DNA from: a virus
Reading direction: 5' to 3' (one strand)
Virus record (IMG/VR): IMGVR_UViG_3300025117_000011
Location: 1 to 46,031 of that record
Length of the DNA stretch: 46,031 nt
The translations under genes and the position numbers were made by a program. Shown piece after piece: positions 17,521 to 46,031 of this stretch. The stretch's first letter is position 1, and each line of letters starts with the position of its first letter. Under the pieces are notes generated by a model. It worked only from the letters and a program-made list of their open reading frames with translations, was not told where the DNA came from and ran no database searches.

Positions 17521-17536
17521 AGTGGACAGCAGGAAC

Positions 17537-17608: not shown

Positions 17609-18712
17609 ATGAAGCTCACTGCGCAAGTAAAATTGGCTATCAATTCCTCTCAAAGGGAAACATTGCTCCATACAATGGAAACGGCCAATTCCGCATGTAA
17701 TGAGATAAGCGATACCGCATGGAAAACAGGAGCATTCAGACAGTACGATCTTCACAGAGAATGCTATAAAACTATAAGAGATAAATTTCCTCTCTCGGCT
17801 CAGGTCGTAGTCCGTTGTATCGGAAAGGTCAGTGATAGCTACAAGAAAGATAAAAAGACAAAACGGAATTTCAAGAAGAGAGGAGCAGTGACATACGACG
17901 AAAGAATCCTACGATGGTATGACAATTCCGTGAGTATTTGGACAATGAACGGAAGACAGAAGATTCCCTTTGGGGTGGGAGATCACCATAAAAAACTCCT
18001 TCAGTTCCAAAGGGGAGAGACTAATCTCGTCTACATGGATGGGAATTTCTATCTCTTCACGACCTGCGAAATTGAGGAGCCAGAGCAGTTAAAAACTACA
18101 GGATGGCTTGGCGTAGACTTAGGTATTAAAAATATCGCAACAGACAGTGACGGGAATAAATACTCAGGAGGACACGTCAACGGCCTGAGAAAGAGACATG
18201 CGAAGTTGCGGAGGAGATTACAGAATAAGGGTACGAAATCTGCAAAGAGGCTTCTGAAGACACGGAAGCGAAAAGAGGCGAGGATGGCAAAAGACATCAA
18301 CCACTGCATCGCCAAACGGCTGGTGCGATTGGCTCAAGACACCCTTCGCGGCATCTCGTTGGAAAATCTGACGGGAATCCGCGAAAGGATAACGGTTCGC
18401 AGGAGCCAGCGCAGAGCGCACCACTCGTGGGCGTTTTATGACCTTGCACAGAAGATTCTGTACAAGGCGGCATTGGTTGGTGTACCTATTCTATTTGTTG
18501 ATCCAAGGGATACTTCCCGGACATGTCAAAGATGTGGGCATTGTGAAAAGGGAAACAGAAAGGATCAGTCTACATTCAAATGTCTTTCGTGCGGGTTTTC
18601 TGCGAATGCCGATGACAACGCTGCTCGCAATATATCAGATAAAGCGAGTAGGGCTTCAGTCAATAAGCCATACGTGGCAACCTTCGGGTTAGCTACAAGC
18701 CTATCCCTTTAG
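17609..18712 (+). CDS. tnpB: TnpB RNA-guided nuclease
   Basis: 367 residues starting MKLTAQVKLAINSSQ; the frame extends upstream to 17453 but that part crosses the left-end hairpin and is not family-like. RuvC residues are all visible: Asp in GVDLGIKNIA (about residue 173), Glu in ISLENLTGI, and Asp in SANADDNAARN. The zinc ribbon is TSRTCQRCG followed by FKCLSCG. It therefore looks catalytically intact. In this family the guide RNA is made from the 3' end of the gene plus right end, and reads into flanking DNA (from about 18729). The stop codon lies inside the right-end hairpin, as is usual. Confidence 0.93.
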   Translation: MKLTAQVKLAINSSQRETLLHTMETANSACNEISDTAWKTGAFRQYDLHRECYKTIRDKFPLSAQVVVRCIGKVSDSYKKDKKTKRNFKKRGAVTYDERILRWYDNSVSIWTMNGRQKIPFGVGDHHKKLLQFQRGETNLVYMDGNFYLFTTCEIEEPEQLKTTGWLGVDLGIKNIATDSDGNKYSGGHVNGLRKRHAKLRRRLQNKGTKSAKRLLKTRKRKEARMAKDINHCIAKRLVRLAQDTLRGISLENLTGIRERITVRRSQRRAHHSWAFYDLAQKILYKAALVGVPILFVDPRDTSRTCQRCGHCEKGNRKDQSTFKCLSCGFSANADDNAARNISDKASRASVNKPYVATFGLATSLSL

Positions 18713-24299: not shown

Positions 24300-24947
24300 T
24301 TAGAAATCCTTGGTCTTTAATTTTAGAATGATTCTTTTGCCACGACGGTCAAAGAGTGGTTCCACCGTGCGCCCAACAATTCCCTCAGCCATCGTGTCCT
24401 TACCACTTTCCTCCTTCGCCGTGACGGAGGGGATGCCTTTCTTCACCATTGTTACAATCTCATCTAGGGAGAAATCTCCAAGGTACGGAACGGTTTTAAT
24501 ACAGAGTTTCTGCGCCACATCCTCAGTGTTCTTCCAATCAAGCCAGAACTTATCCGAGACAAGGACATCGAATAGCCGGAATGATTTGTCAGGGCGGTAG
24601 TTCCCTCCTTTCTGAATCCCAGCTCCGTATCCTTCTCCATAGCAGATTGCCTTCACCTTCTGCACCTCTCCTTTTTCGTCAGGAAGCCAGAAGGCTGCTT
24701 GCATTTTCTCAGGAGTGAACGTCCGTTGTAAATAGGCCAAAAGGTCAGTAGAGAGTTGTGCCGCGTCGGTACGCCCCCCGAATAGTACTGTGCCGTCTTC
24801 CAGAAGAGTCACCCTGATATTCGTACCATCAATCTTCTCAGTAACGTGCCATGTCTTGAATGAACCGTACACAGGAGAGCGCAGAATATCTGTAACCTTG
24901 AACTTTGCATCTCTCTCGAAGAGAGTTTCAATCTTGTGGTATTCCAT
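24300..24947 (-). CDS. RNA ligase, T4 Rnl2-like
   Basis: 215 residues. Nucleotidyltransferase motifs in order: I EKIDGTNIRV (lysine about residue 38), III FGGRTD, IIIa FRLFDVLV, IV AEGIVGRT, V ILKLKTKDF. K-I-D-G-T-N is typical of the Rnl2/editing-ligase group; the protein ends just after motif V so the Rnl2 C-terminal domain is missing or minimal. It would seal 3'-OH/5'-P nicks in RNA. The start overlaps the upstream stop (TGATG) with a C-rich leader. A second ligase of Rnl1 type lies at 29772-30887. Confidence 0.88.
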   Translation of the reverse strand: MEYHKIETLFERDAKFKVTDILRSPVYGSFKTWHVTEKIDGTNIRVTLLEDGTVLFGGRTDAAQLSTDLLAYLQRTFTPEKMQAAFWLPDEKGEVQKVKAICYGEGYGAGIQKGGNYRPDKSFRLFDVLVSDKFWLDWKNTEDVAQKLCIKTVPYLGDFSLDEIVTMVKKGIPSVTAKEESGKDTMAEGIVGRTVEPLFDRRGKRIILKLKTKDF

Positions 24948-29771: not shown

Positions 29772-30887
29772 GTGGCAAGCGAAACAATACTATCACAGGT
29801 TGATGTCCAGAGAATGGAATCTCTTTGTGATGAGAGACTTATCTCAAGGCAAAGGCATCCCACAGAAGATTTACTAATTTGGAATTATACGGCTCTCTGC
29901 CAATATAAGTTTGCCTGGGATGAATACACTAGGATGTGTAGGGGATTGATTACGGATTCGCAGGGGGATATTGTTGCAAGACCATTCCCGAAATTCCACA
30001 ACATAGAGGAGCATAGCGGAAGTGATTGTAGGCTTCCACCATTGGATTGGAGAAAACCATTCATCTGTACACAAAAAGAAGATGGCAGTTTGGGTATCCT
30101 TTATCCCTCAAAAGAGGGATGGAAAATAGCGACCAGAGGGAGTTTCACCTCAGACCAAGCTCTTCATGCCACAGAGATTTTCCGTAAAAAGGGCTACGAT
30201 AAGTATATTTATTCTAAAGACTTAACATATTTATTCGAGATTATATACCCTGATAATCGTATAGTTCTGGATTACAAGGGAATGGACGATTTGATTCTAT
30301 TGGAGATTTTAGATACGGGGACGGGCAATGCCTTAAAATGGGAATCTGTATCTAAAATTGCGAAAGAGATTGGCTGCCCCGTTGTCTCGTGTATAGAATT
30401 GAGTGTAGAGAATATCCAGAGGCTTGAAGAATTATTCGGAAAAGATAGGGGGGGGGAAGAGGAAGGAATAGTAGTCCGATTTGAAGATGGGACAAGATGT
30501 AAGGTGAAGTATGGAGAATATAAACGTCTGCATAGATTGATAACGGGGTGCAGCCCCCGCTCGATTTGGGAGAATCTAAAAGATGGGAAAAGCCTTGAAG
30601 AATTGTTAGAGCATGTCCCGGATGAGTTTAATTCGTGGGTGCAGAAAAATGTAGAATTAATAAAAGGAGATTACAAAGTGATGGAAGGAGAGTGCGAACA
30701 GATTTTTAAGAAAATCAAAAAGTTGGGTGATGTGGACAGAAAAACCTATGCTCAGGAAATTTTGGAGCATGGGATATTATCTAAGATTCTGTTTCAAATG
30801 TTGGATGGTAAAAATTATTCAGAAACAGTTTGGAAAATGATCAAACCGGATTCTACTAAACCATTCCGTCCAGATATTGATTCTTGA
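29772..30887 (+). CDS. RNA ligase, T4 Rnl1-like
   Basis: 371 residues from a GTG. Order of motifs: RMCRGLITD and ARPFPKFHNIEE upstream of the active site, I KEDGSLGIL (lysine about residue 98), III ATRGSFTS, IIIa LFEIIYPDNRIVLDY, IV EEEGIVVRF, V KVKYGEYKRLHR, then a helical C-terminal domain. Length and order match T4 RnlA, which re-joins tRNAs cut in the anticodon loop by host defence. No end-healing kinase/phosphatase was recognised, so the substrate may differ or the host supplies healing. Followed by an intrinsic terminator. Confidence 0.9.
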   Translation: MASETILSQVDVQRMESLCDERLISRQRHPTEDLLIWNYTALCQYKFAWDEYTRMCRGLITDSQGDIVARPFPKFHNIEEHSGSDCRLPPLDWRKPFICTQKEDGSLGILYPSKEGWKIATRGSFTSDQALHATEIFRKKGYDKYIYSKDLTYLFEIIYPDNRIVLDYKGMDDLILLEILDTGTGNALKWESVSKIAKEIGCPVVSCIELSVENIQRLEELFGKDRGGEEEGIVVRFEDGTRCKVKYGEYKRLHRLITGCSPRSIWENLKDGKSLEELLEHVPDEFNSWVQKNVELIKGDYKVMEGECEQIFKKIKKLGDVDRKTYAQEILEHGILSKILFQMLDGKNYSETVWKMIKPDSTKPFRPDIDS

Positions 30888-32103: not shown

Positions 32104-32904
32104 ATGGCTTTTCTCTCAATAATAACTGGTACGTTTGGTTATAATGTTATCCAAGGAGACAGGGTAACAAATCTCTTTGCTTGGGCGGGTCCAGCGACAG
32201 ATGGCACTGGTCTTTCCGATGCTGCAATCTTCCAGGGGAATCAGGCTGCGGACGGTGCAACACTTGGAGTAGTCGAGATTGTTACGCAGAACCTTGCCCC
32301 CACTGGAACCTCAGACGTGGTTGCGCTCATGGACACAGGAACGGATGAATTAGGCTTCCTTGACAGTGGCATAAATGGGAGTGTTTATGATGGGAATGCG
32401 ATGGGATGGGGTCACACCCTGCCTGGGGATGGGTATTCTTATGTTGCTCCTCCCGTGACAGGAGACGGGGGGAACCTCGCTATCGGGGTTATCGGTGCAG
32501 CAAACACAATCCAACTTTTTGCAGGCGGCTCAGAAGGGACAAATGTGAAAATGGCAATCTCCAATGATGGTGTCCAGTTCGGATTCTACGATGCGAACAC
32601 GACTGGCGGGCCGTCAACCTTCACGACGCCTATTCTGGATATGTCAGCGAGTACGCCAGCGACTTGCAAAAAAACAATAGACCCTTCGGCGAGAAAACTT
32701 TATTACGCTGATGGAACAACCGTAGCAGTAGATTACTCCGTTCAGGATAAACTCGTCATTGCCGGAGGGGTGACGCTCAGCGAAATGGCGGCCCCTGCTA
32801 CCCCTGCCGCGAATAAGGTTGCCATCTACGTGGACTCCGCAGACGGGAGCCTGAAGGCAAAGTTTGACTCAGGCAACGTGGTGACAATCGCAGCCTATGC
32901 CTGA
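32104..32904 (+). CDS. Virion fibre/decoration-like protein
   Basis: 266 residues, Gly/Ala/Thr-rich and beta-type. The C-terminal block AAPATPAANKVAIYVDSADG, then LKAKFDSGNVVTIA is a motif common at the ends of phage tail and head fibres. Encoded outside the late operon with its own promoter, which is unusual for a virion gene and may mean a high expression need or early display. Confidence 0.6.
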   Translation: MAFLSIITGTFGYNVIQGDRVTNLFAWAGPATDGTGLSDAAIFQGNQAADGATLGVVEIVTQNLAPTGTSDVVALMDTGTDELGFLDSGINGSVYDGNAMGWGHTLPGDGYSYVAPPVTGDGGNLAIGVIGAANTIQLFAGGSEGTNVKMAISNDGVQFGFYDANTTGGPSTFTTPILDMSASTPATCKKTIDPSARKLYYADGTTVAVDYSVQDKLVIAGGVTLSEMAAPATPAANKVAIYVDSADGSLKAKFDSGNVVTIAAYA

Positions 32905-32933
32905 TTGATTTTTAGTTTTGTATTCTGTACACT
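32905..32933 (+). promoter_or_regulatory. Promoter P9 of groEL, leaderless start predicted
   Basis: TTGATT, 17 bp, TACACT, six bases, then GTG at 32940. Same geometry as P4, P5 and P7. Confidence 0.75.
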
Positions 32934-32939
32934 CACAAA

Positions 32940-34508
32940 GTGAAACAACTTAAAAGCGGACATGCGGCAAGAGAGGCGATATTGAACGGAGTCCGCAAGT
33001 TGGAAGAACAGGTTTCTGCGACGATGGGTGCGAAAGGGCGCAACATCCTTTTGGAGAAAAAGGGCGTTCCGGTTATCACCAAAGACGGCGTAACTGTTGC
33101 GAGAGAGATACATCTGCCGGACAGATTTGAGGACATGGGTTGCCAGCTAGTCAAGCAGGCAGCGAATGAAACAAATCGTCTCGCAGGCGACGGTACCACA
33201 AATTCAGTAGTTCTCGCTTACTCAATGATGAAGAACGGCATGAAAAAGATCAAGCGCGGAGCAAACGCGATTTCTATGAAGCGCGGGATGGATAAGGCGA
33301 AGGACTCTATCATCGCACAATTAAATACCATGAAGAAAGATGTTACCAAAAAGGAGCAGCTTCAGGCTATCGCCACAATCAGTTCTCAGGATGAAGAAAT
33401 AGGGAAGGTGGTAGCTGATGTTATTTCGCAGGTAGGCAAAGACGGTATCGTAACATCCGAAGCAAGCGCAATAGCGGGCATAGAGTCTGAGGTTGTTGAG
33501 GGTATGGAACTCGACTATCCGCTTGTCTCCCCCTACTTCATAAATAACCCGAAACTCACGGCAGTAATCGGGGATACTCCCATACTAATTACAGACAAAA
33601 GAATCACCCACTTCAAACAGATTCTTCCGATTCTCAAATTGATCAAGGAAACGTATGAGGTGCCGAGAATCACTATCATCTGCAAAGACATGCGCGATGA
33701 AGCACTGGTGTCTTCCGTGGTGAATAAACAGAAGGGGCAACTGGAGATCGCTGTGGTAAAATTCCCTGAAACAAATCAGAGCTTAGAAATTTTGGAAGAC
33801 GTAGCGAAACTCACGGGGGCGACAATAATTTCTGAGATATTCAATCTCCGTCTGGAAAAAATGAATCTTGAACAATTGGGCCACGCAAAAAAGATTATTG
33901 CAGGTAAAGACAAAATCACAATAATCGGAGGGGAGGGGAATATTGAGGAAAGAATAGAAGAACTTAAAATACAACTTGAACAGGAGGATAACCCCATGCT
34001 TAGGAAGCGTCTGGCAAAACTCACAAATGGCGTAGCGGTTATCCGCGTTGGAGCGAATACTGAAGTGGAGCAGACAGAAAGACTCCATCGCGTGGAAGAT
34101 GCCATAAACGCGGCAAAAGCCGCCTCAGAAGAGGGTATCCTTGCAGGAGGCGGGACAGCCTACCTCCGCTGCGTAAACAATCTAAAGCTTACTGGTGATG
34201 AAGAAACAGGAGCAGAGATAGTATTCCATGCAATCCAGACTACTACCGAAGTCATTGCGGATAATTCAGGGGCGAATGGTAAGAAAGTCCGGGAAGAGGT
34301 GCAGAGACTCACGGGGAATATGGGGTACAACGCCCTTACAAACAGCTACGAAAATCTCATGGATTCCAATGTGATAGACCCCACCAAAGTAGTGCGCATT
34401 GCTCTTGAGAACGCTGTTTCTGTTGCCAGCATATTCCTTACGCTTGAAGGGGCTGTTTGTTTCATAAAACCGGAAGAGCCTGGATTTGACTTGTCTCTTG
34501 TAGATTAA
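32940..34508 (+). CDS. groEL: GroEL-like chaperonin (group I)
   Basis: 522 residues from GTG. Equatorial ATP-site signature GDGTT near residue 82 and VEDAINAAKAA are present, as are KGRNILL, ITKDGVTVAREI, SPYFINNP and GAEIV. Apical substrate-site aromatic residues (Y-x-x-x-SPYF) are kept. The segment after VVNKQKGQLEIAVVK differs from cellular GroEL: the usual APGFGDRRK is replaced by a shorter FPETNQS. The flexible GGM-rich C-terminal tail is missing; it ends PGFDLSLVD. It is thus full-length in all three domains but divergent. A GroES-like partner is at 40606-40908. Probably folds the coat or other large virion proteins. Confidence 0.95.
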   Translation: MKQLKSGHAAREAILNGVRKLEEQVSATMGAKGRNILLEKKGVPVITKDGVTVAREIHLPDRFEDMGCQLVKQAANETNRLAGDGTTNSVVLAYSMMKNGMKKIKRGANAISMKRGMDKAKDSIIAQLNTMKKDVTKKEQLQAIATISSQDEEIGKVVADVISQVGKDGIVTSEASAIAGIESEVVEGMELDYPLVSPYFINNPKLTAVIGDTPILITDKRITHFKQILPILKLIKETYEVPRITIICKDMRDEALVSSVVNKQKGQLEIAVVKFPETNQSLEILEDVAKLTGATIISEIFNLRLEKMNLEQLGHAKKIIAGKDKITIIGGEGNIEERIEELKIQLEQEDNPMLRKRLAKLTNGVAVIRVGANTEVEQTERLHRVEDAINAAKAASEEGILAGGGTAYLRCVNNLKLTGDEETGAEIVFHAIQTTTEVIADNSGANGKKVREEVQRLTGNMGYNALTNSYENLMDSNVIDPTKVVRIALENAVSVASIFLTLEGAVCFIKPEEPGFDLSLVD

Positions 34509-34519
34509 TTCCCTATACT
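34491..34519 (+). promoter_or_regulatory. Promoter P10, leaderless start predicted
   Basis: TTGTCT, 17 bp, TATACT, six bases, ATG at 34526. Lies over the groEL stop. Confidence 0.7.
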
Positions 34520-34525
34520 CCATCT

Positions 34526-34738
34526 ATGCCTAAATTCCTCAGAAGAATAACACCCAAGGACGGCGATGCATTCACTCAGGCCACCAGAGAGGAGGTTATT
34601 GCTCAAAAAGCCAAGGAGGTGAACGGAGAAATAATAATCTTGGAGGCAAGGAGGAATGTTCTTGGGAAAACAAGGGCAGAACGTCAGGAACTTATTGCTG
34701 AAGCAAAGGCAGAAGTGGAGAAACTTTACTGTGAGTAA
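34526..34738 (+). CDS. Small helical charged protein
   Basis: 70 residues, MPKFLRRITPKDGDAFTQAT, then a Lys/Glu/Ala-rich helix to the end. No family recognised. The 73 bp after it hold promoter P11. Confidence 0.6.
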   Translation: MPKFLRRITPKDGDAFTQATREEVIAQKAKEVNGEIIILEARRNVLGKTRAERQELIAEAKAEVEKLYCE

Positions 34739-34776
34739 CCCCCGACCCCCGATGGGCTTAAAAAATTTTCTAAGGC

Positions 34777-34805
34777 TGGACTAAATACCTGATGTACTGT
34801 ATTGT
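34777..34805 (+). promoter_or_regulatory. Promoter P11, leaderless start predicted
   Basis: TGGACT (weak -35), 17 bp, TATTGT, six bases, ATG at 34812. Confidence 0.6.
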
Positions 34806-34811
34806 TTGCTT

Positions 34812-35981
34812 ATGAAGAGGGTTCTGCTTTCTAAATTACATCTCTGGGATAAGAACCCCCGCACGATCAAAGATAAGCGATTTGAGACTCTTTGCAAATC
34901 TATGGAAGACGACCCCGAATTTATGGATTTGCGCCCCGTTCTTGCCACAAAGGATGGAAGGATATACGCAGGAAATATGCGATATCGAGCCGCACAGCAG
35001 CTAGGATGGAAAGACATCCCTGCAATCATTACAGATATTTCCGAAAAGCTGGCAAATGAAAGAGCGATCAAGGATAACAACGAATTTGGAGAATGGAATA
35101 ATGACGAGCTTGCCACTCTCCTTGACGAAATGGAGAAGGATGGGACAGACCTTTCATTGCTTGGCTTGGATGATTCTATTCAGAAGATTATAGATCAGTT
35201 GAAGGAGAAAGAGATTGTGGAGGATGAAGTACCTGAACCGAGGAAAGACCCGCAGACGAAGTTAGGGGACTTGTGGCAACTCGGAGAACACAGATTGCTC
35301 TGTGGCGACGCAACGAAGATTGAGGATGTGGAAAAGCTGATGGGGGGGGGCACTGCCGACATGCTTTTTACTGATCCACCGTATGGAGTTGCTTATGTTG
35401 GGAAAACGAAAGACTCTCTTACAATTCAAAATGATTCGCTTGGTGATGAAGGAACGAGAAAACTTGTTGCAGATGCGCTCCGTATTGCACCAATACGGGC
35501 AGGTGCGTGTTTTTATGTGTGTTCCCCGCCGGGGAACTCAGAAACTGCATTCAGATTGGCAATTGCCGACGCGGGGTTGGTTTTAAGACAGTGTATTGTT
35601 TGGGTGAAAGACCATTTTGTGATGGGACGGCAGGATTACCACTGGAAACACGAATCAATTTTGTATGGCTGGCGAGAAGGCGCTGCGCATTTTTATGTAG
35701 GAGGCAGAACACAGGATACTGTATGGGAAGTGCCGCGACCGACTGTAAGCAAAGAGCATCCGACAATGAAGCCGATTGCCCTGATTGCAAAGGCAGTGAA
35801 TAACAATACGAAGGAAAATGATATTGTGCTCGATGTTTTTGGTGGTTCCGGTTCCACCCTCATTGCCTGTGAACAGCTCAATCGCAAGTGCTACATGATG
35901 GAGATTGATCCGCAATACGTCCGTGTTATTATAGACCGATGGGAAACCCTGACAGGAAACAAAGCCAAGTTGCTCAAGTAA
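34812..35981 (+). CDS. ParB/Srx-like domain fused to DNA methyltransferase
   Basis: 389 residues from ATG 34812 (a TTG two codons earlier is less likely). Residues ~1-90 form a ParB-like domain (KNPRTIKDKRFETLCKSMED, GNMRYRAAQQLGWKDIPAII). Residues ~145-389 are a beta-class methyltransferase: TDPPYG motif IV, HPTMKP, DVFGGSGSTLIACEQ motif I, EIDPQYVRVIIDRW. This fusion is common just upstream of terminase genes in phages. It probably methylates phage DNA before packaging or against restriction. Confidence 0.88.
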   Translation: MKRVLLSKLHLWDKNPRTIKDKRFETLCKSMEDDPEFMDLRPVLATKDGRIYAGNMRYRAAQQLGWKDIPAIITDISEKLANERAIKDNNEFGEWNNDELATLLDEMEKDGTDLSLLGLDDSIQKIIDQLKEKEIVEDEVPEPRKDPQTKLGDLWQLGEHRLLCGDATKIEDVEKLMGGGTADMLFTDPPYGVAYVGKTKDSLTIQNDSLGDEGTRKLVADALRIAPIRAGACFYVCSPPGNSETAFRLAIADAGLVLRQCIVWVKDHFVMGRQDYHWKHESILYGWREGAAHFYVGGRTQDTVWEVPRPTVSKEHPTMKPIALIAKAVNNNTKENDIVLDVFGGSGSTLIACEQLNRKCYMMEIDPQYVRVIIDRWETLTGNKAKLLK

Positions 35982-36118
35982 GAGAGCTTGCAAGGCAGAT
36001 GAAACAAGCCCGTAAGAACGGAGACAACAAAAGAGCGAGTAAGCTGGAATTTACAATCCACATTATAAATGCTACTATGCAGTCCTATGGCCAGAACACC
36101 GCAGAAAACACCACATAA
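35939..36118 (+). CDS. 59-residue protein overlapping the methyltransferase and terS
   Basis: MGNPDRKQSQVAQVRELARQ, then MKQARKNGDNKRASKLEFTI: basic helical. Starts inside the methyltransferase end and stops inside terS, in a third frame. Spans the terS promoter. Plausible but unproven. Confidence 0.5.
   Translation: MGNPDRKQSQVAQVRELARQMKQARKNGDNKRASKLEFTIHIINATMQSYGQNTAENTT
36050..36078 (+). promoter_or_regulatory. Promoter P12 of the terminase unit
   Basis: TTTACA, 17 bp, TACTAT, eight bases to the terS ATG at 36087; the leader would be 0-2 bases. Confidence 0.6.
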
Positions 36119-36416
36119 AGGACTAAGGGAGCCGTGGAAGAAAGGAGAATGCCCGAACCCGAATGGAAGACCTGTCGGGCAAAGAAATTACGCCACGATT
36201 TACAAAGAAGCCATCCGCAAGATAGCTGAATCTCAAAACATGACACCCGAAGAGATCGAAGACGTTATGGTGCAATCAGGACTCAAACACGCGATCAAGG
36301 GGGATTATCGCTTCTATCAAGACACTTTAGACCGTCTTCACGGAAAGCCAAAAGGAGAGATAGACTTCAAGGGAACTATAGCTCTCACGAAAGCAATCAC
36401 CGAAGCCGATGACTGA
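36087..36416 (+). CDS. terS: Small terminase subunit-like protein
   Basis: 109 residues from MARTPQKTPHKGLREPWKKG. WKKGECPNPNGRPVGQRNYA is a motif recurrent in phage small-terminase-like proteins, followed by helices (ATIYKEAIRKIAESQNM, IEDVMVQSGLKHAI). It directly precedes and overlaps terL by 8 bp. It would bind the packaging site. Confidence 0.75.
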   Translation: MARTPQKTPHKGLREPWKKGECPNPNGRPVGQRNYATIYKEAIRKIAESQNMTPEEIEDVMVQSGLKHAIKGDYRFYQDTLDRLHGKPKGEIDFKGTIALTKAITEADD

Positions 36417-37893
36417 TGATGGGGAGCTCATAAAAAGATGGCGTAAGTCCCCTCTAAATTACATTGAGGACGTTTGGAAACTCATACCCCAGCCCCTCAA
36501 AGAAGGCGTACCGAAAGACTTACCGCTCAAAGATTACTCTGTAAAAGACTTTGAGCCGTTCATTGACGGCAAGCATATTACGTGGCAGCAGTGGGTTATC
36601 CTCAAGGCTGTAGAGAAGGCCGTGAAGGGGGACGCTCCCGCATGGATTACGGTAGTCTCCGGCCACGGCATCGGCAAAAGCACGGTGGAAGCTTGGCTCA
36701 TTTTTTGGTTTCTCACCTGCTGGGTGCATTCCAAGGTCGGCTGCACAGCTCCGAGTGCAGAGCAGATGTTTGATGTTCTTTGGGCCGAAGCCTCCCTGTG
36801 GCTCAATAGAATGCCTCCTAAGATCAAGGGATTGTATGAGTGGCAATCAAGTTACATTCGTGTCGCAGAAGACCCTGAAAGCTGGTTCGCAAGAGCGAGA
36901 ACGGCACGCAAAGAGAAACCGGAGGCACTGGCGGGACTCCACGCTGATAATGTGATGCTCCTTTGCGATGAAGCAAGCGGCATTGAGGAGATCATTTTCA
37001 AAACTGCCCACGGCGCACTCACAAATAAGCGTACATTGGTTTTGCTGATTTCCAATGGCACAAGGAACATTGGATACTTCTATGATTCCCACCATTCCGG
37101 CAGAGAAGATTGGCAATGCCTCTCGTTCTCCTCGCTGGATTCCCCTATAGTTGATAAGAAGTTCATTGATCTCATACGTGATAAGTATGGTGAGGGTTCT
37201 GATGAGTGGCGTATCCGTGTGGTAGGGCAGTTCCCTGACGAAATGGCGATTGATACCAGCGGATACGTGCAACTGATTCAGGAAAATGATATACGGTTCA
37301 TCCATGAGGCGGATTTTGTAAAATCCGGCTGGAGAAAAATGGGGGTAGACCCTTCGGGGATGGGGAACAACAAAACGATCATTACACTGAGAGACGCGTT
37401 CAAGGCCGAAGTGATTTACGAAGAGAAGAGGTCTACACCCGAAAGAATCGCGGCAGCCGTAGCGCGGCTTATGGAGGAGTACAATGTCCCTGCTGATCTT
37501 GTATTCATGGACATCTTCGGCGTTGGGGGTGAGTCCTATCAAAAGCTGGCACTGATGGGTATAAGTGTTGTCGGTCTGAATGTGGCAGACAAACCAAGTG
37601 ATGAGGAAAGGTTTATGAATCTGAGAGCCGAGGCCTACTGGCGAACAAGGAAATGGCTCCGCACTGGAGGAGATTTGGTATTACATGAAGGTTATAATGA
37701 CCTAAAAACGATAAAATACAAGAAGACTGTGAAGGGCAAAATCCAGATTATGCCGAAGCAGGAAATGCAGAAACTCGGCATAAATTCGCCAGATTTTGCG
37801 GATTCTCTCATGCTGACCTTTTGCACTCCTGACGAAAACTATGGCGAAGAAACCGAAGAAATGGAGGAATTGTTTGCAGGAAGACTCAGTTAG
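36409..37893 (+). CDS. terL: Large terminase subunit
   Basis: 494 residues. ATPase: Walker A GHGIGKST (about residue 84), Walker B NVMLLCDEASG, coupling motif ISNGTRN. Nuclease: GVDPSG first Asp cluster, FMDIFGVGG, then SPDFADSLML final acidic residues. Spacing and order are those of headful-type packaging motors. Start chosen by the overlap with terS. Confidence 0.95.
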   Translation: MTDDGELIKRWRKSPLNYIEDVWKLIPQPLKEGVPKDLPLKDYSVKDFEPFIDGKHITWQQWVILKAVEKAVKGDAPAWITVVSGHGIGKSTVEAWLIFWFLTCWVHSKVGCTAPSAEQMFDVLWAEASLWLNRMPPKIKGLYEWQSSYIRVAEDPESWFARARTARKEKPEALAGLHADNVMLLCDEASGIEEIIFKTAHGALTNKRTLVLLISNGTRNIGYFYDSHHSGREDWQCLSFSSLDSPIVDKKFIDLIRDKYGEGSDEWRIRVVGQFPDEMAIDTSGYVQLIQENDIRFIHEADFVKSGWRKMGVDPSGMGNNKTIITLRDAFKAEVIYEEKRSTPERIAAAVARLMEEYNVPADLVFMDIFGVGGESYQKLALMGISVVGLNVADKPSDEERFMNLRAEAYWRTRKWLRTGGDLVLHEGYNDLKTIKYKKTVKGKIQIMPKQEMQKLGINSPDFADSLMLTFCTPDENYGEETEEMEELFAGRLS

Positions 37894-37901
37894 TGTATCC
37901 T
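37873..37901 (+). promoter_or_regulatory. Possible promoter P13, leaderless geometry
   Basis: TTTGCA, 17 bp, TATCCT, six bases, ATG at 37908. Weak match. Confidence 0.4.
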
Positions 37902-37907
37902 TGCATT

Positions 37908-38099
37908 ATGTCCATCTATTCAAAAGCAGAGAAGGAAGCGAACAGAATACTCGGTGACCGCCCTGTGAAGCCTGAGAAGTTCTGCACCCCTGAAGAGTGG
38001 CTGGCCTATGAGAAGAGCCTCGATCATTACCGCAGAGAGTGGGATCATATTTTCCTGCACGAAACGGTCATGGAATTAGATCGAAGGAATGCCGAATAG
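37908..38099 (+). CDS. Hypothetical small protein
   Basis: 63 residues from MSIYSKAEKEANRILGDRP, helical, charged (SLDHYRREWDHIFLHE). Overlaps the next gene by 11 bp. Located between terL and portal, where small accessory packaging genes are common. Confidence 0.6.
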   Translation: MSIYSKAEKEANRILGDRPVKPEKFCTPEEWLAYEKSLDHYRREWDHIFLHETVMELDRRNAE

Positions 38100-38433
38100 G
38101 ATTAGATTCAGGAATGGCCTGAAACTGGAAGGGATAAAGTGCCCGTGGTGCAATCGGAAGAGACGCGCGAGAGTGTTCACAAACAGAATACGATGGTGGA
38201 TTAGACTAAGCTGCGGACATGTGAAAGTGCCGGGCTATGTACTCCCCCCCGATGTTCTTATCAAGGAAGGAATGGCGAATTACAATTCTGCTACAAGGGA
38301 CGAATCATGGGGGAAGATGCAGAAGCACGATGAATGGAACAGGGTGCAAAGACTCAAAGAACAGGAGGAGTTCTTTGCCAGTAACAGGGGGAAACTAAGA
38401 GGGAATTTTGGAATTGCGAGGAAAGCGGTATAA
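38089..38433 (+). CDS. Zinc-binding basic protein
   Basis: 114 residues. KCPWCNRKRRARVF, later SCGH: a possible C-x2-C ... C-x-H metal site, then a basic helical end (RVQRLKEQEEFFASNRGK). Could be an HNH-related packaging helper, but the catalytic residues are not visible. Confidence 0.6.
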   Translation: MPNRIRFRNGLKLEGIKCPWCNRKRRARVFTNRIRWWIRLSCGHVKVPGYVLPPDVLIKEGMANYNSATRDESWGKMQKHDEWNRVQRLKEQEEFFASNRGKLRGNFGIARKAV

Positions 38434-38449
38434 TGTCCGTACAGAGTTA

Positions 38450-38475
38450 AGGCAGCAGTAAGGGGCTGCCTTTTT
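38450..38475 (+). terminator. Intrinsic terminator before the portal gene
   Basis: GGCAGC (38451-38456) and GCTGCC (38465-38470) followed by TTTTT. Ends the terminase transcript. Confidence 0.85.
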
Positions 38476-38527
38476 CGATATGCTTGCATTCCCCCTTGGC
38501 TGCGAGCATACTACACATGGACTAGAT

Positions 38528-38550
38528 GTGTGGGACTACTGTACCACACA
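38528..38550. promoter_or_regulatory. Inverted repeat at the portal start
   Basis: TGTGTGG and CCACACA flank a 9-11 bp spacer immediately before the ATG at 38550. It could be an operator for the late head operon or an mRNA hairpin that hides the start. Upstream TTGCAT and CATACT (17 bp apart, near 38484-38512) may form the promoter. Confidence 0.5.
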
Positions 38551-40625
38551 TGCCTAAAGCAATTGAAGTACCACTGAAAGGGACTACGAAGAAGAGCGAA
38601 AGCGAAACGCCGTTGTGGATTGACAGAGATCCTGTGCAACAGGCTTTTCTGATGAAGAGGATGAAGCGGATTACATACATAAAACAAAAATCAGCAGAGC
38701 ATTATCCCGAAATCAGGGAGTCCATCATGCTCTATGAAGGGAAGAGCACGATAGTAGATGAGAAAAAGGATGAAAGGACTATAGAGACGGTCATGCCCAT
38801 TGCAAGAGCGTTTGTAGAAGCCAAAACAGCGGAAGAAGTGAAGTCAATGAATGAGTATGAATATACGCCAGTAAAAGACACTGCCGACTCGTGGAAGGTG
38901 GGACTCATAAGTGATGTTAATAAACATGTACATCGAGTAGTCAAGAGAAAATCTAAACGGCACAAGATGATACGGATGAAGAATATTCATGGATTGTCGA
39001 TTAAGCGGAAGGGGTACAGGAAAGTAATGCGCTACATCAAAGACCGTGTGGAGAGCGATGATGACGCGAGGGGGACAGTATTCAGGCGAAGGCTTGTCCC
39101 CGTCTACGATGACCTGTTTGAAGACATCGTTTCACCATTTGATTTCGCAATAGACCCGAACGCGGATTCTCTGGATGATGCAATGGACTGTTGCCATACG
39201 CACGTTGAGAACTATGAAGTTTTCATGGAAATGTACGGTAATGACCCGCGCTTTATTAACGTAGATAAGGTGAAACCCGGAGTGAAGTTCACGTTTGATA
39301 AGGATGGAGAATTTGTTTACAGCGAAAAGGTAGCGGAGAACGGTGTTGTGATTGAAGAATATTTTAATAAAACTGAGGACGAATGGGTTGTTGTGGCGAA
39401 TGGAGTCCTGCTGACGCCCGTACAGAAGGAGGGAGAAGATTTTATAGCCTATCCTCTCCCTGATGACCACAAGGAGCTTCCATTCGTCAGTTACCATAAC
39501 CATGCGAAGTTCGCTATTGAAACATTCGGGCCTCCGCCCGATCTTTCACCGGACGGGGAGGAATTGAGTTCTGTCCAGGTACTCGATCACGAGGAGAGTT
39601 TTTGGACTAAAGGCGACCCGCTTATTATTAAAGACCTCATAGACCTCAACACAGGATTTACACGCGCGATGTTCCGCAACGCAAAGATAGCTGCGGAGGT
39701 GATTATCGCTACCAAGGAAGGAAAGAAATTCAAGAACAAACACTACAAGGCAGGAGATCAGGCACTAGGCATGATGGGGCAGTTTGAAGTGGTACAGGTG
39801 GGAAGGAATATCTTTGGAGACATGGTGCCCCTGCTGGACTGGCTCATGTCAATGAAAGTCCTCGCATTGGGGGTAGACCCTCGTTCCCTGACACAATCGG
39901 AGAAAACTAAAACGGCAACCGAGGCGGCTATCATGCGCGAGACTGCTCTCGTAAGGCTTGAACAGGGGATAGAATTCAATGAAGAAAATGGAGAGATCAG
40001 GGACGGAATACTTACATACAAACTCATCCAGCAATACTATTCAAAGCCGGAGTTGGTCAGAATCACTGGATTGGAATCTGAGAAAGAGCTTGATAGATTT
40101 GACGAAATTGAAAAGGACGGGGAAACCCCGGTTATCGGGAAACGGTACAGGCTCATCCGCTCAAGTATCAAACTCAAGGAAAAGAAGCAGAAGAAGGGGG
40201 ATTCTTACAAATACTACCTCTCAAGGGAGGAGGGTGGTATCAGCTCATTCCTTGCGCGGCCTGAGTACATCCGGTCTTCGGAAGTGGATATTACAATTAC
40301 AACAACCCGCAGGGCGGGAGAAATACGCGCAATCAACGTACAACAGTCCATGCAGCTTATCGAATTGTATATTAAGCTGTTCGCTCTCTCCCAGCCGGGA
40401 CAGAACGGGCAACCGCCTGTCATAGACAAGGAAGATTTGCCAGACCTCAAAGAAGAGCTGAAAATCCTGCAACGTGCTCTAGGCCGCAATCCCGATGCGA
40501 TTGCGACACAGGGTGAGGAAGACGAAGAACAGGAAAAGTCCGACGAAGCAGAAGCGCTTGTCTTTGCAAGCCAGAGGCCCGTAGCAGATGTTACCCCGCC
40601 ACCCAATGTTGTTCCCGCTCAATGA
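38550..40625 (+). CDS. Portal protein, P22-like
   Basis: 691 residues from MPKAIEVPLKGTTKK (an ATG at 38526 adds eight). Features of large portal proteins of short-tailed phages: SPFDFAIDPNADSLDDAMDC, YHNHAKFAIETFGPP, GLTQSEKTKTATEA-like region LTQSEKTKTATEAAIMRE, and an acidic low-complexity C terminus. Length fits P22-type portals. Follows terminase after a terminator, starts the head operon. Confidence 0.85.
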   Translation: MPKAIEVPLKGTTKKSESETPLWIDRDPVQQAFLMKRMKRITYIKQKSAEHYPEIRESIMLYEGKSTIVDEKKDERTIETVMPIARAFVEAKTAEEVKSMNEYEYTPVKDTADSWKVGLISDVNKHVHRVVKRKSKRHKMIRMKNIHGLSIKRKGYRKVMRYIKDRVESDDDARGTVFRRRLVPVYDDLFEDIVSPFDFAIDPNADSLDDAMDCCHTHVENYEVFMEMYGNDPRFINVDKVKPGVKFTFDKDGEFVYSEKVAENGVVIEEYFNKTEDEWVVVANGVLLTPVQKEGEDFIAYPLPDDHKELPFVSYHNHAKFAIETFGPPPDLSPDGEELSSVQVLDHEESFWTKGDPLIIKDLIDLNTGFTRAMFRNAKIAAEVIIATKEGKKFKNKHYKAGDQALGMMGQFEVVQVGRNIFGDMVPLLDWLMSMKVLALGVDPRSLTQSEKTKTATEAAIMRETALVRLEQGIEFNEENGEIRDGILTYKLIQQYYSKPELVRITGLESEKELDRFDEIEKDGETPVIGKRYRLIRSSIKLKEKKQKKGDSYKYYLSREEGGISSFLARPEYIRSSEVDITITTTRRAGEIRAINVQQSMQLIELYIKLFALSQPGQNGQPPVIDKEDLPDLKEELKILQRALGRNPDAIATQGEEDEEQEKSDEAEALVFASQRPVADVTPPPNVVPAQ

Positions 40626-40908
40626 CTTCATCTACATTATTGAACAGGAAACCGAGATGGGCAAGGTTGATGGATTCTACACGGGAGAGGATGGCCTTCC
40701 TATAGCCGGTTATGGCAAAGTGTACGCCGTCTCCGAAGAAGCCACCGAGAAGGAGAACCAAAAGAACCTTGAGAGAATCACAGTAGGAATGAACGTGTGG
40801 TATACAAAATATGCTGCTGAAGACGTCTTTGCGAAGGATGAGGAGGGAACGAAAATAGAACATCTCAAAGCTGTCCATATCACTTCTGTCCATGCCAGAG
40901 ACATTTAG
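40606..40908 (+). CDS. groES: GroES-like co-chaperonin
   Basis: 100 residues from MLFPLNDFIYIIEQETEMGK; the ATG is reached through a C-rich CCCCGCCACCCA inside the portal end (a start at 40588 adds six). The pattern follows GroES: PL-x-D near the N terminus, a 20-residue loop (GFYTGEDGLPIAG), GYGKVYAV (roof of the G-x-V-x-A-V strand), then RITVGMNVWYTKYAAEDV matching the GD-x-V-x-Y-x-K-Y-A segment, and LKAVHITSVHARDI at the end. Probably the partner of the phage GroEL (32940), placed in the head operon for coat folding, like T4 gp31. Confidence 0.75.
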   Translation: MLFPLNDFIYIIEQETEMGKVDGFYTGEDGLPIAGYGKVYAVSEEATEKENQKNLERITVGMNVWYTKYAAEDVFAKDEEGTKIEHLKAVHITSVHARDI

Positions 40909-41107
40909 CGAGAACGAAAAAAAAAGGCTTCGGGAATTGATAACGTCAGACGACTTCCTGTTGTTTCACAGATTTTTGCAGGAGAGAACGGGCAATCTCC
41001 TTCTGGAGTTTTCCAGTACGAAACAAGATGAAAGAGACAGGAGAGAAGAGATTTATCACAGGCTCAATGAAGTATCCACTATCAGAGGGCTTATCGATGA
41101 GATTTGA
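40892..41107 (+). CDS. Hypothetical small helical protein
   Basis: 71 residues, MPETFSENEKKRLRELITSD and onward. Helical, charged (EIYHRLNEVSTIRGLI). Overlaps both neighbours. Between GroES-like and scaffold genes. Confidence 0.6.
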   Translation: MPETFSENEKKRLRELITSDDFLLFHRFLQERTGNLLLEFSSTKQDERDRREEIYHRLNEVSTIRGLIDEI

Positions 41108-41297
41108 TTTCATCCCGGAAGAGGCAAAACCACATGAATGTGCTGTTTTGGTGCTTTATTTTGTGGTAGGGGTGAAAGACTCTGTGGAGATACAGCGGAC
41201 GCTCCATTACAAAGACGTTCGTTCCGTCTACAGAGTCCTGAACAAATACAGACAGGAAAGTGGACTACGGTACATGCAAACAGAGCAACCAAAATAG
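41097..41297 (+). CDS. Small HTH-like protein, paralogue of 8270-8449
   Basis: 66 residues from MRFDFIPEEAKPHECAVL; the ATG overlaps the upstream TGA. Shares IPE-AKP, a hydrophobic helix, D-VEI-LHYK and SVYRVL with 8270-8449. Likely small helix-turn-helix protein; see that entry. Confidence 0.7.
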   Translation: MRFDFIPEEAKPHECAVLVLYFVVGVKDSVEIQRTLHYKDVRSVYRVLNKYRQESGLRYMQTEQPK

Positions 41298-41410
41298 ATT
41301 TATGCAAGGATTCGAGCCAGCTCTTTGGAATCACTTTTTTGGCAGAAGGTCGTGTGGAGGCATCGTAGATGTTTCCCCTTGGCCTTCAGCCAATCATTAC
41401 CCCAACATTT

Positions 41411-42031
41411 ATGACTACAGAAGAACAGGCGTCGGGCGAGAATCTTTCTCCCGACGGTGACGGTTCCATCGTAGCCGAGCTTATATCCTCTGAGGAAAAA
41501 GCCGACGGTGAAGCCAAGGTGGAAAAGCCCAAGGAAGAATCCAAGGAGGACACGACCAAACCCATGCAAATGACCCAGAAGGAATATCAGGAATGGAAGG
41601 AGGGCCAGAAAGCACTCAATACTCTTCTGGAAGCTCTCGGTAAGAAAGACGTGAAAACCAAGAAGCCCGAAGAGGCACTGAAGGATGTAGTTTCTGATCT
41701 CCAGCGCAAACTTGAACAATCCCGATGGGAAAGGGATAACCCCGCAGTCCTCAAAAATGAAGAATGGGCAAAGGTGAACGAGGAACGATTAGACCCCGAT
41801 CATCCTTGGCACAAATTGGATTATGAAGACGTGTGGAAACTGATTAAGAAGGAAAATCCCAGAATGGAATCTGCTAAAAAGGAGCTTGAACACTCGGAAA
41901 GGAATCCCACAGACGGCTCTGTGCCATTCTTCGGTACCGGAGAAGTCGTAGAAAGTATCACGGACTTTGATAAGTCAATCCAGAAGGAAATGAAGTCAAA
42001 ACTCGGATACAAGGATTCTGACTTCGAGTAA
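41411..42031 (+). CDS. Putative scaffolding protein
   Basis: 206 residues from MTTEEQASGENLSPDGDGSI. Acidic, Lys/Glu-rich, largely helical and low in aromatic residues in the first two thirds, like phage scaffolds; the C terminus (DFDKSIQKEMKSKLGYKDSD) is basic-amphipathic, as in coat-binding tails. It lies right before the coat genes. The 113 bp upstream hold no firm gene. Confidence 0.6.
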   Translation: MTTEEQASGENLSPDGDGSIVAELISSEEKADGEAKVEKPKEESKEDTTKPMQMTQKEYQEWKEGQKALNTLLEALGKKDVKTKKPEEALKDVVSDLQRKLEQSRWERDNPAVLKNEEWAKVNEERLDPDHPWHKLDYEDVWKLIKKENPRMESAKKELEHSERNPTDGSVPFFGTGEVVESITDFDKSIQKEMKSKLGYKDSDFE

Positions 42032-42525: not shown

Positions 42526-43509
42526 ATGCTACTCACCTATGGTCTACTCGGAACGGCATTGACGAAGAACGCAAAGGTTGCGTTCAATAAAGGTGTCAAA
42601 CTGGCTCCCCAAGCGGGGAGAATGATGTTTGACGTTCGATCCGTTACCGATAAAATTTCAGAGTCAGACAGCTGGAGCTTCGACCCGATTGCACGGGCAA
42701 CCGGAGAGGGAAGCAACTACGCTTCTGACGACCCTGTGAAGGGGTACAACCTTATCCTCACACAGGCCAAGTTTACGCAGTCATTCGAGATGACTAAAGA
42801 ATCAGGAATGTACGACAAGTACAATGTAACGACAGCCCTCAGGGGCGTACAGGGGCTTGGAACCGCCTGTGGCAAGAGGTTTGAGATGGATGCTCAGCTT
42901 CTTGTCGGGCAGGGATCGGGTGCAAGCTACACAGATATGGACGGCCAGACGATTTCTACATTGTCTGCTGACTCCGTAAATGTCTTCTCAGCCTCCCACA
43001 CGACACGTTCAGGTACAGGCTATGGCAACCTCGGCTCTTCCGTGTTCGGCCAGACAGGGCTTGAAGCGGATGAAGTTCTCTGGAGGTCATTCGTAAACCA
43101 CGACGGAGAACAGGTTGATAAGATTTCCACTCATATTTACACCACGCGGAAGTCCGGTGTAACCAATCTTGTCGATGAATACCGCAACGCGAGAGGGCAC
43201 GTTGAAGATGACGCCCTTGGTATAAATGTCTTCAACACGAATTTCAACCGTGCTGCGGGGCCGCGTTACGGCCACATCGTCATGGAATACCTTGATGCGT
43301 CTTCGACTGGTGGAATTGACACTGCCAAAGACGATTACTGGGGTACTGTTCAGGCGGGTGCTGCGGAAATGGAAGCTAAAATTTCTCAGAATCCGATGGT
43401 ATATCCTATCCAGCTCGTTCAAAGGAATCGCAATGTTCTTGTGCAAACTGACATGCACTACGCATACGGCATAAAAGATGCGTTCTGCATCACGCAGCAC
43501 AATGCTTAG
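42526..43509 (+). CDS. Major capsid protein
   Basis: 327 residues. Region FTQSFEMTKESGMYDKYN and the late DYWGTVQAGAAEMEAKISQN, HYAYGIKDAFCI resemble HK97-fold coat proteins; length fits. It lies in the canonical place after scaffold and before connectors. Leader TAACCTTTCCAATCTTTTATC. A likely substrate of the phage chaperonin. Confidence 0.75.
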   Translation: MLLTYGLLGTALTKNAKVAFNKGVKLAPQAGRMMFDVRSVTDKISESDSWSFDPIARATGEGSNYASDDPVKGYNLILTQAKFTQSFEMTKESGMYDKYNVTTALRGVQGLGTACGKRFEMDAQLLVGQGSGASYTDMDGQTISTLSADSVNVFSASHTTRSGTGYGNLGSSVFGQTGLEADEVLWRSFVNHDGEQVDKISTHIYTTRKSGVTNLVDEYRNARGHVEDDALGINVFNTNFNRAAGPRYGHIVMEYLDASSTGGIDTAKDDYWGTVQAGAAEMEAKISQNPMVYPIQLVQRNRNVLVQTDMHYAYGIKDAFCITQHNA

Positions 43510-44912: not shown

Positions 44913-45743
44913 GTGCAGTATTTATTCAGTCTTGTCGGCTCCATTGCAGATCAGGCGTTGAATGAAACCCTTGGCAGTTCCACATCAACGCTTCCTGCAC
45001 TGCAACCCGCTGCTCTTAACCGTCAGGTAGACCGTATCAACCGTAAATTCGTAAATGCAGCAAGGGATAACGCCATAGAAAGGTGGTCATGGTTGGGGGA
45101 TACTCAAACAGAGTTTGAAACATATGATGCCACTTCTCTCTCTGCGGCGGCGGCTAAGTCTGCGGCGACATTCGCTGTGGCAAGCGTTACTGGTTTCCCG
45201 ACTTCCGGCAGGGTGTGGCTTGATACCGTGAATAATGCAGTGGACTTTGTGGATTATGCATCTATTGCCACTCTGACAGCCACAGTCAGCACAGCAACAG
45301 GAGCGGAAACAATTACTGTCGCCCATGACTCAGGAGATCACTGTGAACTTTTGTACGCCCTGCCGTCTGATTTCGGCTCAGTGATTCAGGTACTTGTAGA
45401 CGGCAATGAATATACGGAGGACAAAGTAAATCCTGTTCCTACTGGCGGAAAATACCGCCTCTTTGATTCATATATTTTGTTCCCGATGGACATAGGCACT
45501 ACGGATGTTGTTCTCAGGTACGAGAAAGGAGCTACGACGCTCTTCACAGGTAACGATGCGGCAGACAGGCTTCTCTCCACGAATATACCAGTGGATTTTG
45601 AAAGATTCGCCATTGAGAGTCTGATTGCTTACATCCATATCAAAAGGAGGAAAAAGGATGCTGCGATTGACGCTCTCACGCTTGCAAAACAAGAACTGGA
45701 CGCAGCTTTGGCTGCTGACAATCCTTCCACCTACATTTATTAG
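44913..45743 (+). CDS. Head-tail adaptor (gp4-like) protein
   Basis: 276 residues from GTG. Helical ends (RQVDRINRKFVNAARDN; FERFAIESLIAYIHIKRRKK) with a beta insertion in the middle (FAVASVTGFPTSGRVWL). This shape fits adaptor/head-completion proteins of short-tailed phages. An ATG two bases earlier is out of frame. Confidence 0.6.
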   Translation: MQYLFSLVGSIADQALNETLGSSTSTLPALQPAALNRQVDRINRKFVNAARDNAIERWSWLGDTQTEFETYDATSLSAAAAKSAATFAVASVTGFPTSGRVWLDTVNNAVDFVDYASIATLTATVSTATGAETITVAHDSGDHCELLYALPSDFGSVIQVLVDGNEYTEDKVNPVPTGGKYRLFDSYILFPMDIGTTDVVLRYEKGATTLFTGNDAADRLLSTNIPVDFERFAIESLIAYIHIKRRKKDAAIDALTLAKQELDAALAADNPSTYIY

Positions 45744-46031
45744 CAGAGAATATTCTATCGAAGCGCAGAACATGTCAGGGGGCTTAAATGCCACATCAGG
45801 GATAGAGAACCTTGCTCCTGAACAGCAATCTGCGGCAGAAAATGTCCGGTATTCAGACGAGGGGGGGATACAGCCGAGAAATGGCGTTGTCCTTCTCACT
45901 GCATCAGGCGGTGGCGCAAAAGTCGGCAATATCCATACGCATCGCAACACGGTCATGTTCGCAAAATCAGGAACGAAAATCTATCAGTCAACTGACTGGA
46001 AAAAACATTCTTATACGACAGGAGTAACACG
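45658..46031 (+). CDS. Head-tail stabilisation-type virion protein, N-terminal part (continues at base 1)
   Basis: Same gene as 1-1547. The frame is open from 45658 through the window end. EYSIEAQNMSGGLNATSG looks like the true N-terminal family motif, so the ATG at 45772 (in the middle of it) is probably too late; the ATG at 45658 gives a 597-residue product. It has AAAGGAGG before it, but that is coding for the upstream gene and such sites are not used elsewhere here; an ATT at 45739 after a C/T-rich tract is another option. Confidence 0.7.
   Translation, partial: MLRLTLSRLQNKNWTQLWLLTILPPTFISREYSIEAQNMSGGLNATSGIENLAPEQQSAAENVRYSDEGGIQPRNGVVLLTASGGGAKVGNIHTHRNTVMFAKSGTKIYQSTDWKKHSYTTGVT
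45905..46031. repeat. Right copy of 127-bp terminal direct repeat
   Basis: Identical to 1-127; see that entry. Counting it once gives a 45,904-bp circle. Confidence 0.97.

Follow-up and report, generated by a model that had tools for sequence, protein, structure and literature searches.

The virus record IMGVR_UViG_3300025117_000011 of IMG/VR, analysed here at its full length of 46,031 nucleotides (nt) and called the window below, encodes a GroEL and a GroES-like protein whose gene begins inside the portal gene. We propose that the two proteins probably form a private, lidded phage chaperonin for virion proteins. The same arrangement is found in a second phage contig of 49,518 bp, L267 (IMGVR_UViG_3300033064_001904). 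While phage GroEL proteins and GroEL-GroES pairs are already known, what is new here is a split pair with a portal-coupled GroES, together with a possible single-ring signature. The features on which the proposal depends are as follows (aa, amino acids).

32940-34508, plus strand: GroEL, a group I chaperonin (Cpn60) of 522 aa with a GTG start and without a GGM tail, inter-ring positions altered (Pfam, PHROG, alignment)
40606-40908, plus strand: GroES/Cpn10 homologue of 100 aa with FYT instead of IVL as its mobile-loop tripeptide (Pfam, profiles)
40606-40625, plus strand: overlap of the portal 3' end with the GroES start, 20 nt (equally long in L267, 7995-8014)

The window encodes a full-length group I chaperonin

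The open reading frame (ORF) at 32940-34508 matched Pfam PF00118 with 169.7 bits (cut-off 34.3; E 1.2e-49), with residues 21-503 on model positions 1-483 of 490, and matched phrog_5725 ('chaperonin groEL') at 8.7e-120. The protein could be aligned over its whole length with Salmonella GroEL, with identity at 213 of 519 aligned residues, and all four ATP/Mg residues (D52, D87, D398, and D495) were retained in this alignment. Nine apical residues that bind GroES and substrate were taken from mutational work. Eight of them are kept in the window GroEL (S201, Y203, F204, L234, L237, L259, V263, and V264), and the ninth, Y199, is replaced with Leu; this position is Tyr in 77 of 80 cellular GroELs. 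The cellular set was drawn from 82 genome-survey loci, with ORFs shorter than 480 or longer than 700 aa dropped and one ORF taken per locus. Judged by these alignments, 32940-34508 is a full group I chaperonin Cpn60/GroEL, as the first-pass annotation of this DNA had proposed in describing a complete GroEL of 522 residues.

The same annotation had described an altered apical segment and a missing GGM tail, and both were confirmed. The apical stretch GFGDRRK is replaced and shortened in the window GroEL (D283N, R284Q, and R285S), and these residues are retained in 74, 78, and 77 of the 80 cellular GroELs, respectively. The protein ends with ...GFDLSLVD and has a single Gly/Met in its last 15 residues. 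Tails with one Gly/Met in the last 15 residues were found in 8 cellular and 12 viral rows, and tails with none in 3 cellular and 8 viral rows; from the aligned sequences, loss of the GGM tail is common among phage GroELs.

A divergent GroES overlaps the end of the portal gene

The ORF at 40606-40908 scored 24.9 bits against Pfam Cpn10 (PF00166; cut-off 21.1) and was the sole Cpn10 match in the window record. It starts within the portal gene, 20 nt upstream of the portal stop codon, so that the GroES-like protein reported earlier at the end of the portal gene was recovered. The start site is backed by L267, which has an equal overlap and a PLNDF start.

A leave-out GroES profile, built from the other GroES ORFs and Salmonella GroES without the window, found 40606-40908 at 6.1e-5 among 13,227 ORFs, and at 0.01 when the most derived phage rows were also left out. 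The next-best ORF of the window had an E of 28 under both profiles. A GroES profile trained without either phage found the L267 homologue at 1.3e-6 and the window ORF at 1.3e-4. Reciprocally, a profile of the window and L267 GroES sequences, searched against 29,146 ORFs, returned these two sequences and then GroES ORFs of cellular genomes, the best of them at 1.4e-6. The leave-out and reciprocal profiles and the L267 homologue exclude a chance match to GroES. An iterated-profile score of 1.3e-16 was set aside because that profile had been trained on the window ORF itself, and low E-values to Scone-E and PQQ proteins were discarded as repeat artefacts, single stretches failing to pass. The ORF was also considered as the usual small head protein that follows a portal gene, and this was rejected because it is unlike the 82-83-aa post-portal ORF of two Manatee Spring terminase relatives.

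When 40 viral GroES rows were supplied as the alignment, the fold model of 40606-40908 reached a predicted local distance difference test (pLDDT) score of 70.7, with low values at the mobile loop. The top matches of this model were Cpn10 structures: the best Foldseek match was 1p3h (4.8e-6), the Z score to 3nx6 was 9.6 (root-mean-square deviation 2.7, 70 residues aligned), and T4 gp31 (1g31) was among them with a Z score of 8.3. Because the aligned rows are themselves GroES, the GroES-like model is support and not independent proof. Taken together, the searches identify 40606-40908 at the sequence level as a divergent but genuine Cpn10/GroES.

The gene layout is repeated in a second phage

A query alignment of the window GroES with a short PLND ORF from a third record, L021, led to one locus, in L267, with 48% identity over residues 2-98 (E 7e-26). 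The L267 homologue scored 32.9 bits against Pfam Cpn10. In L267 the order of genes is GroEL (1415-3055), terminase (3987-5477), portal (to 8014), GroES (from 7995), scaffold-position ORF, and coat. Comparison of the two phages by blastp gave identities of 58% for terminase, 64% for portal, 69% for coat, 69% for a 148-aa ORF, 35% for the scaffold-position ORF, 48% for GroES (98 aa), and 45% for GroEL; GroES and GroEL thus diverge faster than portal and coat. The repetition of this layout in L267 argues for a dedicated, selected chamber.

Close-relative scans with the single proteins (GroEL, GroES, or portal) returned no relatives, and a tblastn search with the portal had no match in the phage collection. 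Neither GroEL nor Cpn10 was found in any of five terminase relatives (L187-L191, 41-50% identical), four of which are fragments of 5-13 kb. The L021 record contained no PF00166 match at E 1. Its PLND ORF (L021:6439-6687, 82 aa, MLPLNDYVIL...) overlaps the 5' end of a groEL whose product falls into one clade with the window GroEL, and is weakly GroES-like (0.036). This ORF is perhaps a minimal, loop-poor GroES missed by Pfam Cpn10.

The window GroEL belongs to a phage-only clade

Among 152 genomes from four phyla (60, 31, 31, and 30 genomes), the best cellular GroELs were 41-47% identical to the window GroEL, whichever the phylum. The window GroEL joined that of L021 with a support of 99 in a FastTree analysis of 171 GroELs in which L267 was absent. 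In an IQ-TREE analysis of 47 selected rows, the GroELs of the window, L021, and L267 formed one group with a stem of 0.9 and a value of 100 in the Shimodaira-Hasegawa-like approximate likelihood ratio test. The motifs SSQDEE and SVAS[MI]F were present only in the window and L021 among the 171 GroELs, and are also present in L267. From the trees and motifs, the three GroELs can be placed in one phage-only clade with private motifs, and since these motifs are shared, a common origin appears likelier than branch attraction. L021 seems to be a different phage from the window because its terminase-like ORF is unmatched to that of the window and the two share few, weak ORF matches. The GroEL lineage would therefore either move between phages or be old in them.

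These results bear on the explanation that the GroEL is a captured host gene or an assembly contaminant without a phage function. Viral collections do contain host DNA with groEL, for example Salmonella and Acinetobacter contigs. However, the window is a closed contig, groEL likewise precedes terminase in L267, and no cellular GroEL in the 152 genomes exceeded 47% identity to this member of a phage-only clade with private motifs. We consider capture or contamination highly improbable.

A proposed chamber for head proteins

In our proposal, a separate gene that precedes the packaging genes would supply GroEL, and GroES would be made with the head proteins, the 20-nt overlap coupling translation of portal and GroES. 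The phage GroEL and GroES would form a lidded, ATP-driven chamber as in bacteria, with GroES presumably capping the phage rather than the host GroEL, and this chamber would fold virion proteins during head assembly. The most probable client would be the coat subunit of 35.6 kDa. The cage of GroEL/ES has a limit of roughly 60 kDa, and because the portal protein (79.9 kDa) exceeds this limit, the coat and not the portal is probably the client, although larger clients could be accommodated in a single ring. The first-pass annotation had suggested a dedicated chamber for coat or portal folding. In the window the two genes are 6,077 nt apart, and the recurrence of their layout in L267 favours a dedicated chamber. 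The portal appears a less likely client than the coat. A compact phage system of about 46 kb in which the lid gene overlaps a head gene would offer a route to identifying phage chaperonin clients.

Alternatively, the phage GroES may serve the host GroEL in the manner of T4 gp31, with the phage-encoded GroEL being a separate, GroES-independent chaperonin of the EL/OBP/AR9 type that acts on other proteins. Such a division would fit two genes that are 6 kb apart with GroES overlapping a head gene, an apical groove that varies within the clade, and the report that the chaperonins of EL, OBP, and AR9 need no co-chaperonin (PMC9598537, PMC5934643). On the other hand, the window GroEL is farther from the EL chaperonin (23.4% identity over 78% of the query) than from cellular group I chaperonins (41-47%), eight of the nine apical residues are kept, and both genes are present in both phages. 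We regard this division of labour as unlikely.

The first-pass annotation had also considered a host with an insufficient chaperonin. The phage genes might then make up for an absent or scarce host chaperonin, an idea compatible with a private chaperonin for virion proteins. The argument for it is a general one: genomes without a GroEL match numbered 4 of 60, 0 of 31, 1 of 31, and 1 of 30 in the four phyla, probably as a result of incompleteness. A host deficit appears improbable to us as the reason for the phage genes.

The mobile loop of GroES is atypical

At the position of the IVL tripeptide, the mobile loop reads FYT in the window GroES and FIV in L267, preceded by Gly in both, and the length of 100 aa matches that of ordinary GroES. 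The I25 position is Ile in 55, Leu in 14, Val in 1, and Phe in none of 70 cellular GroES sequences. Phe was found there in 1 of 56 other viral/phage GroES rows, and in both the window and L267. This count excludes duplicates and rows longer than 160 aa and takes in profile matches below 1e-10 only, which leaves the most derived phage rows outside it. Because Leu at this position is common in cells, only Phe is notable. From its residues the window mobile loop is atypical, in that its first residue is not Ile, Leu, or Val and the Pro after the tripeptide is missing.

An atypical loop raises the question of whether the Cpn10-like ORF has exchanged its co-chaperonin function for an accessory role in the head or portal, such as that of a connector or decoration protein. 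Its location among the head genes, with a conserved 20-nt portal overlap, agrees with recruitment, and so do the changed loop and following Pro. In addition, longer Cpn10-like ORFs (194 and 180 aa) are found directly upstream of terminase in phages phi38:1 and elemo, besides ordinary groES. Nevertheless, the hydrophobic tripeptide after Gly is placed correctly in both phages, the protein is as long as a GroES, and a groEL is present in each of the two phages. A purely accessory role is in our view quite unlikely, and a co-chaperonin for the phage GroEL is preferred.

Several observations weigh against such a GroEL-GroES pair. The window GroES is very divergent: its best phmmer match to a named PDB Cpn10 had an E of 0.12, and tblastn with it matched no record in the phage collection. 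AlphaFold2 without relatives gave a pLDDT of 37.8, and the higher-scoring model depended on an alignment of GroES rows, so that the structure check suggested in the first-pass annotation came out GroES-like with the 40 viral rows and not from the single sequence. All 70 cellular GroES sequences have Pro directly after the tripeptide, where the window and L267 have Gly. R197, half of an intra-ring salt bridge, is Tyr in the window GroEL and Arg or Lys in 80 of 80 cellular GroELs. The GroEL trees have long branches throughout, of which both tree outputs warn, and the GroELs of the window and L267 are 45% identical, no higher than the best cellular GroELs. The apical groove is less conserved in L267 and L021, and the GroES-binding face is therefore not uniform in the clade.

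Inter-ring positions point tentatively to a single ring

The engineered single-ring GroEL (GroEL-SR) described in PMC5575113, which prints R451 in its introduction and R452 in its methods, carries changes at R452, E461, S463, and V464. All four are changed in the window GroEL (R452E, E461N, S463K, and V464K). In the 80 cellular GroELs, position 452 is Arg or Lys in 72 (Glu in none of the 79 rows with listed letters), position 461 is Glu or Asp in 74 and Asn in 6, and position 464 is Val, Ile, or Leu in 77. Loss of all four residues was seen in 5 of the 80 cellular rows and, with the window counted, in 29 of 90 viral/phage rows. L267 has Gln, Pro, Arg, and Thr at these positions (none kept), and L021 has Arg, Gly, Lys, and a gap (one kept). 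In these alignments, loss of the inter-ring residues is unusual in cells but frequent among phage GroELs; it points to a single ring without demonstrating one.

We tentatively raise, with more doubt than confidence, the reading that the window encodes a group I chaperonin which naturally works as a single ring and has a co-chaperonin of its own, in which the inter-ring contacts have been lost and the grip of GroES has been relaxed by Phe at I25. PMC5575113 concludes that a single ring requires a lid that binds less tightly, and reports from an earlier screen that GroES I25F and I25L seem to work with single-ring GroEL at 37 °C. The window pair resembles GroEL-SR and mitochondrial Hsp60 in that all four GroEL-SR positions are changed and in that Phe stands where I25F works with GroEL-SR (PMC5575113), and differs from them in that its GroEL is natural and phage-borne. 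If so, which we hold to be possible but somewhat doubtful, tuning by the phage would resemble what engineers needed for the E. coli GroEL, and the overlap of lid gene and portal would tie the chamber to head assembly. Work on whether group I chaperonins require two rings, and on what GroES affinity they would need with one, has relied largely on mitochondrial Hsp60 and on engineered GroEL-SR/GroES (PMC5575113). Two phages with both sides altered, as far as can be read from their genes, would be natural test material for the question of ring number.

Occurrence of GroEL and GroES in phages

The window GroEL matched 267 of 50,697 phage records by tblastn, a number that includes host DNA filed as phage, such as Salmonella and Acinetobacter contigs, and IMG/VR holds at least 594 candidate stretches encoding a GroEL relative. 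In a whole-record Cpn10 search, 34 of 49 GroEL-bearing records matched at 0.001, 33 of them over the cut-off; a fiftieth record, a terminase relative taken without a known GroEL, had no Cpn10. Of 91 GroEL loci (window included), GroES was within 400 nt of GroEL in 51, further off in 6, and not seen in 34 within the stretches examined. The groEL-GroES separation of the window is the largest among the 91. Fragments and host contigs aside, the smallest GroEL-bearing phages among 120 of the 267 rows (the 60 best and 60 evenly spread) were about 60 kb, and 46 kb is small for a GroEL-bearing phage in that sample. The first-pass statement that either gene is rare in phages of this size was, given these counts and the middle-sized podophages that carry both genes, too strong.

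Some phages carry both GroEL and GroES (PMC7185714), and GroES has been published in a siphovirus and earlier in myo- and podoviruses (PMC4294664). The window pair shares with bacterial GroEL/GroES the presence of both subunits, the catalytic residues, most of the apical groove, and the GroES length, but its genes are 6 kb apart rather than side by side, the GGM tail is absent, and the inter-ring positions and mobile loop are changed. Phage orthologues of GroES include T4 gp31 and RB49 CocO, and host GroEL/GroES is used by phages for folding capsid proteins (PMC9598537); unlike T4, which relies on the host GroEL, the window phage encodes its own. EL gp146, OBP gp246, and AR9 gp228 are also phage-encoded GroEL relatives, reported as single rings (PMC5934643, PMC9598537). 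These proteins work without a co-chaperonin, in contrast to the window GroEL, an ordinary group I chaperonin with a phage GroES.

Cellulophaga phage phi38:1 (Pervagoviridae, gp005/gp007, 72.5 kb) and Flavobacterium phage elemo (60 kb) are middle-sized podophages that, like the window phage, have both genes, and they also have a second Cpn10-like ORF in the packaging cluster, in addition to groES. Their groES, however, is beside groEL or one gene from it, their GroEL is 30-33% identical to that of the window, and their packaging-cluster Cpn10 is 180-194 aa long and upstream of terminase rather than post-portal. These second ORFs are at L101:7848-8432 (KC821614.1, phi38:1, 194 aa) and L018:14309-14851 (MT497072.1, elemo, 180 aa), and the presence of Cpn10 domains in packaging clusters may extend beyond these phages. 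Among marine environmental viral genomes, GroEL has been described in tailed viruses, with 36 members related to phi38:1 and 20 archaeal-virus genomes (PMC5332604); a portal-coupled GroES is not among the features presented in the relevant passages of that source. No description of a portal-coupled GroES was found in the open-access PMC literature.

The genome record and its other genes

The first and last 127 bases of the record are identical. Because this exact direct repeat closes the record on itself, the genome, circular or terminally redundant, is probably complete at 45,904 bp; a repeat of 127 bp may also just reflect an assembly word length. A terminal repeat was not found in the L267 record. 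The gene content is that of a podovirus-like phage, with several gene names resting on position.

1-127, plus strand: terminal direct repeat, left copy (exact identity)
36409-37893, plus strand: terminase large subunit, 494 aa (phrog_2, 2.5e-33)
38526-40625, plus strand: portal protein, 699 aa, 79.9 kDa (two weak matches to PHROG portal families, 0.004 and 0.036; 64% identity with the portal of L267)
41369-42031, plus strand: probable scaffold protein, 220 aa, acidic (function from position; 35% identical in L267)
42526-43509, plus strand: probable major coat protein, 327 aa, 35.6 kDa (name from position and size)
45905-46031, plus strand: terminal direct repeat, right copy (exact identity)

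The probable coat protein had no family match in the Pfam and PHROG scans. Downstream of its gene are tail and ejection genes, which continue over the record ends; one tail gene spans them, as the frame at 45625-46029 and the ORF at 51-1547 match a single L267 ORF. The groEL gene is followed by a ParB-methyltransferase gene and then by terminase. The intervening gene (34806-35981, plus strand) encodes a ParB-N domain fused to an N6/N4 DNA methylase and had no match in the L267 stretch. Two small plus-strand ORFs, 8270-8449 and 41028-41297, are alike, and both match L267:8501-8683; the second sits in the head cluster shortly downstream of GroES.

An RNA-ligase-like gene is present at 29772-30887 on the plus strand (PF09511, 3e-20), and a second one at 24300-24947 on the minus strand was identified by eye only. 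A TnpB/OrfB-like gene at 17453-18712 on the plus strand was also named by eye, and tnpA was not seen. TnpB was tried as a host marker; its six relatives were scattered over five phyla, the nearest 42-56% identical, and did not indicate a host.

The first-pass annotation had given groEL its own leaderless promoter. By eye, a candidate is present at 32905..32933 on the plus strand (TTGATT-17-TACACT), with 8 of 12 consensus bases and its end 6 nt before the GTG start. It fell below the scanner threshold, and the promoter scan placed no site in 32900-32940; the region had 21 promoter-like sites against 17.8 +/- 4.2 in shuffles. The claim could thus not be upheld as made, and a leaderless groEL promoter is a possible candidate rather than an established one. 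TATAAT-like boxes at -13 to -5 were present at 2 of 37 chosen starts (0.37 expected; 23 of 500 shuffles reached 2), and Shine-Dalgarno sequences showed no clear excess (5 of 37 starts, 3.1 expected; 104 of 500 shuffles reached 5). Runs of C with pyrimidines were seen just 5' of the ATG of several early-region ORFs (16656, 16853, 24155, 24947, and 26436, minus strand), and also in the record of L267 (L270, plus strand).

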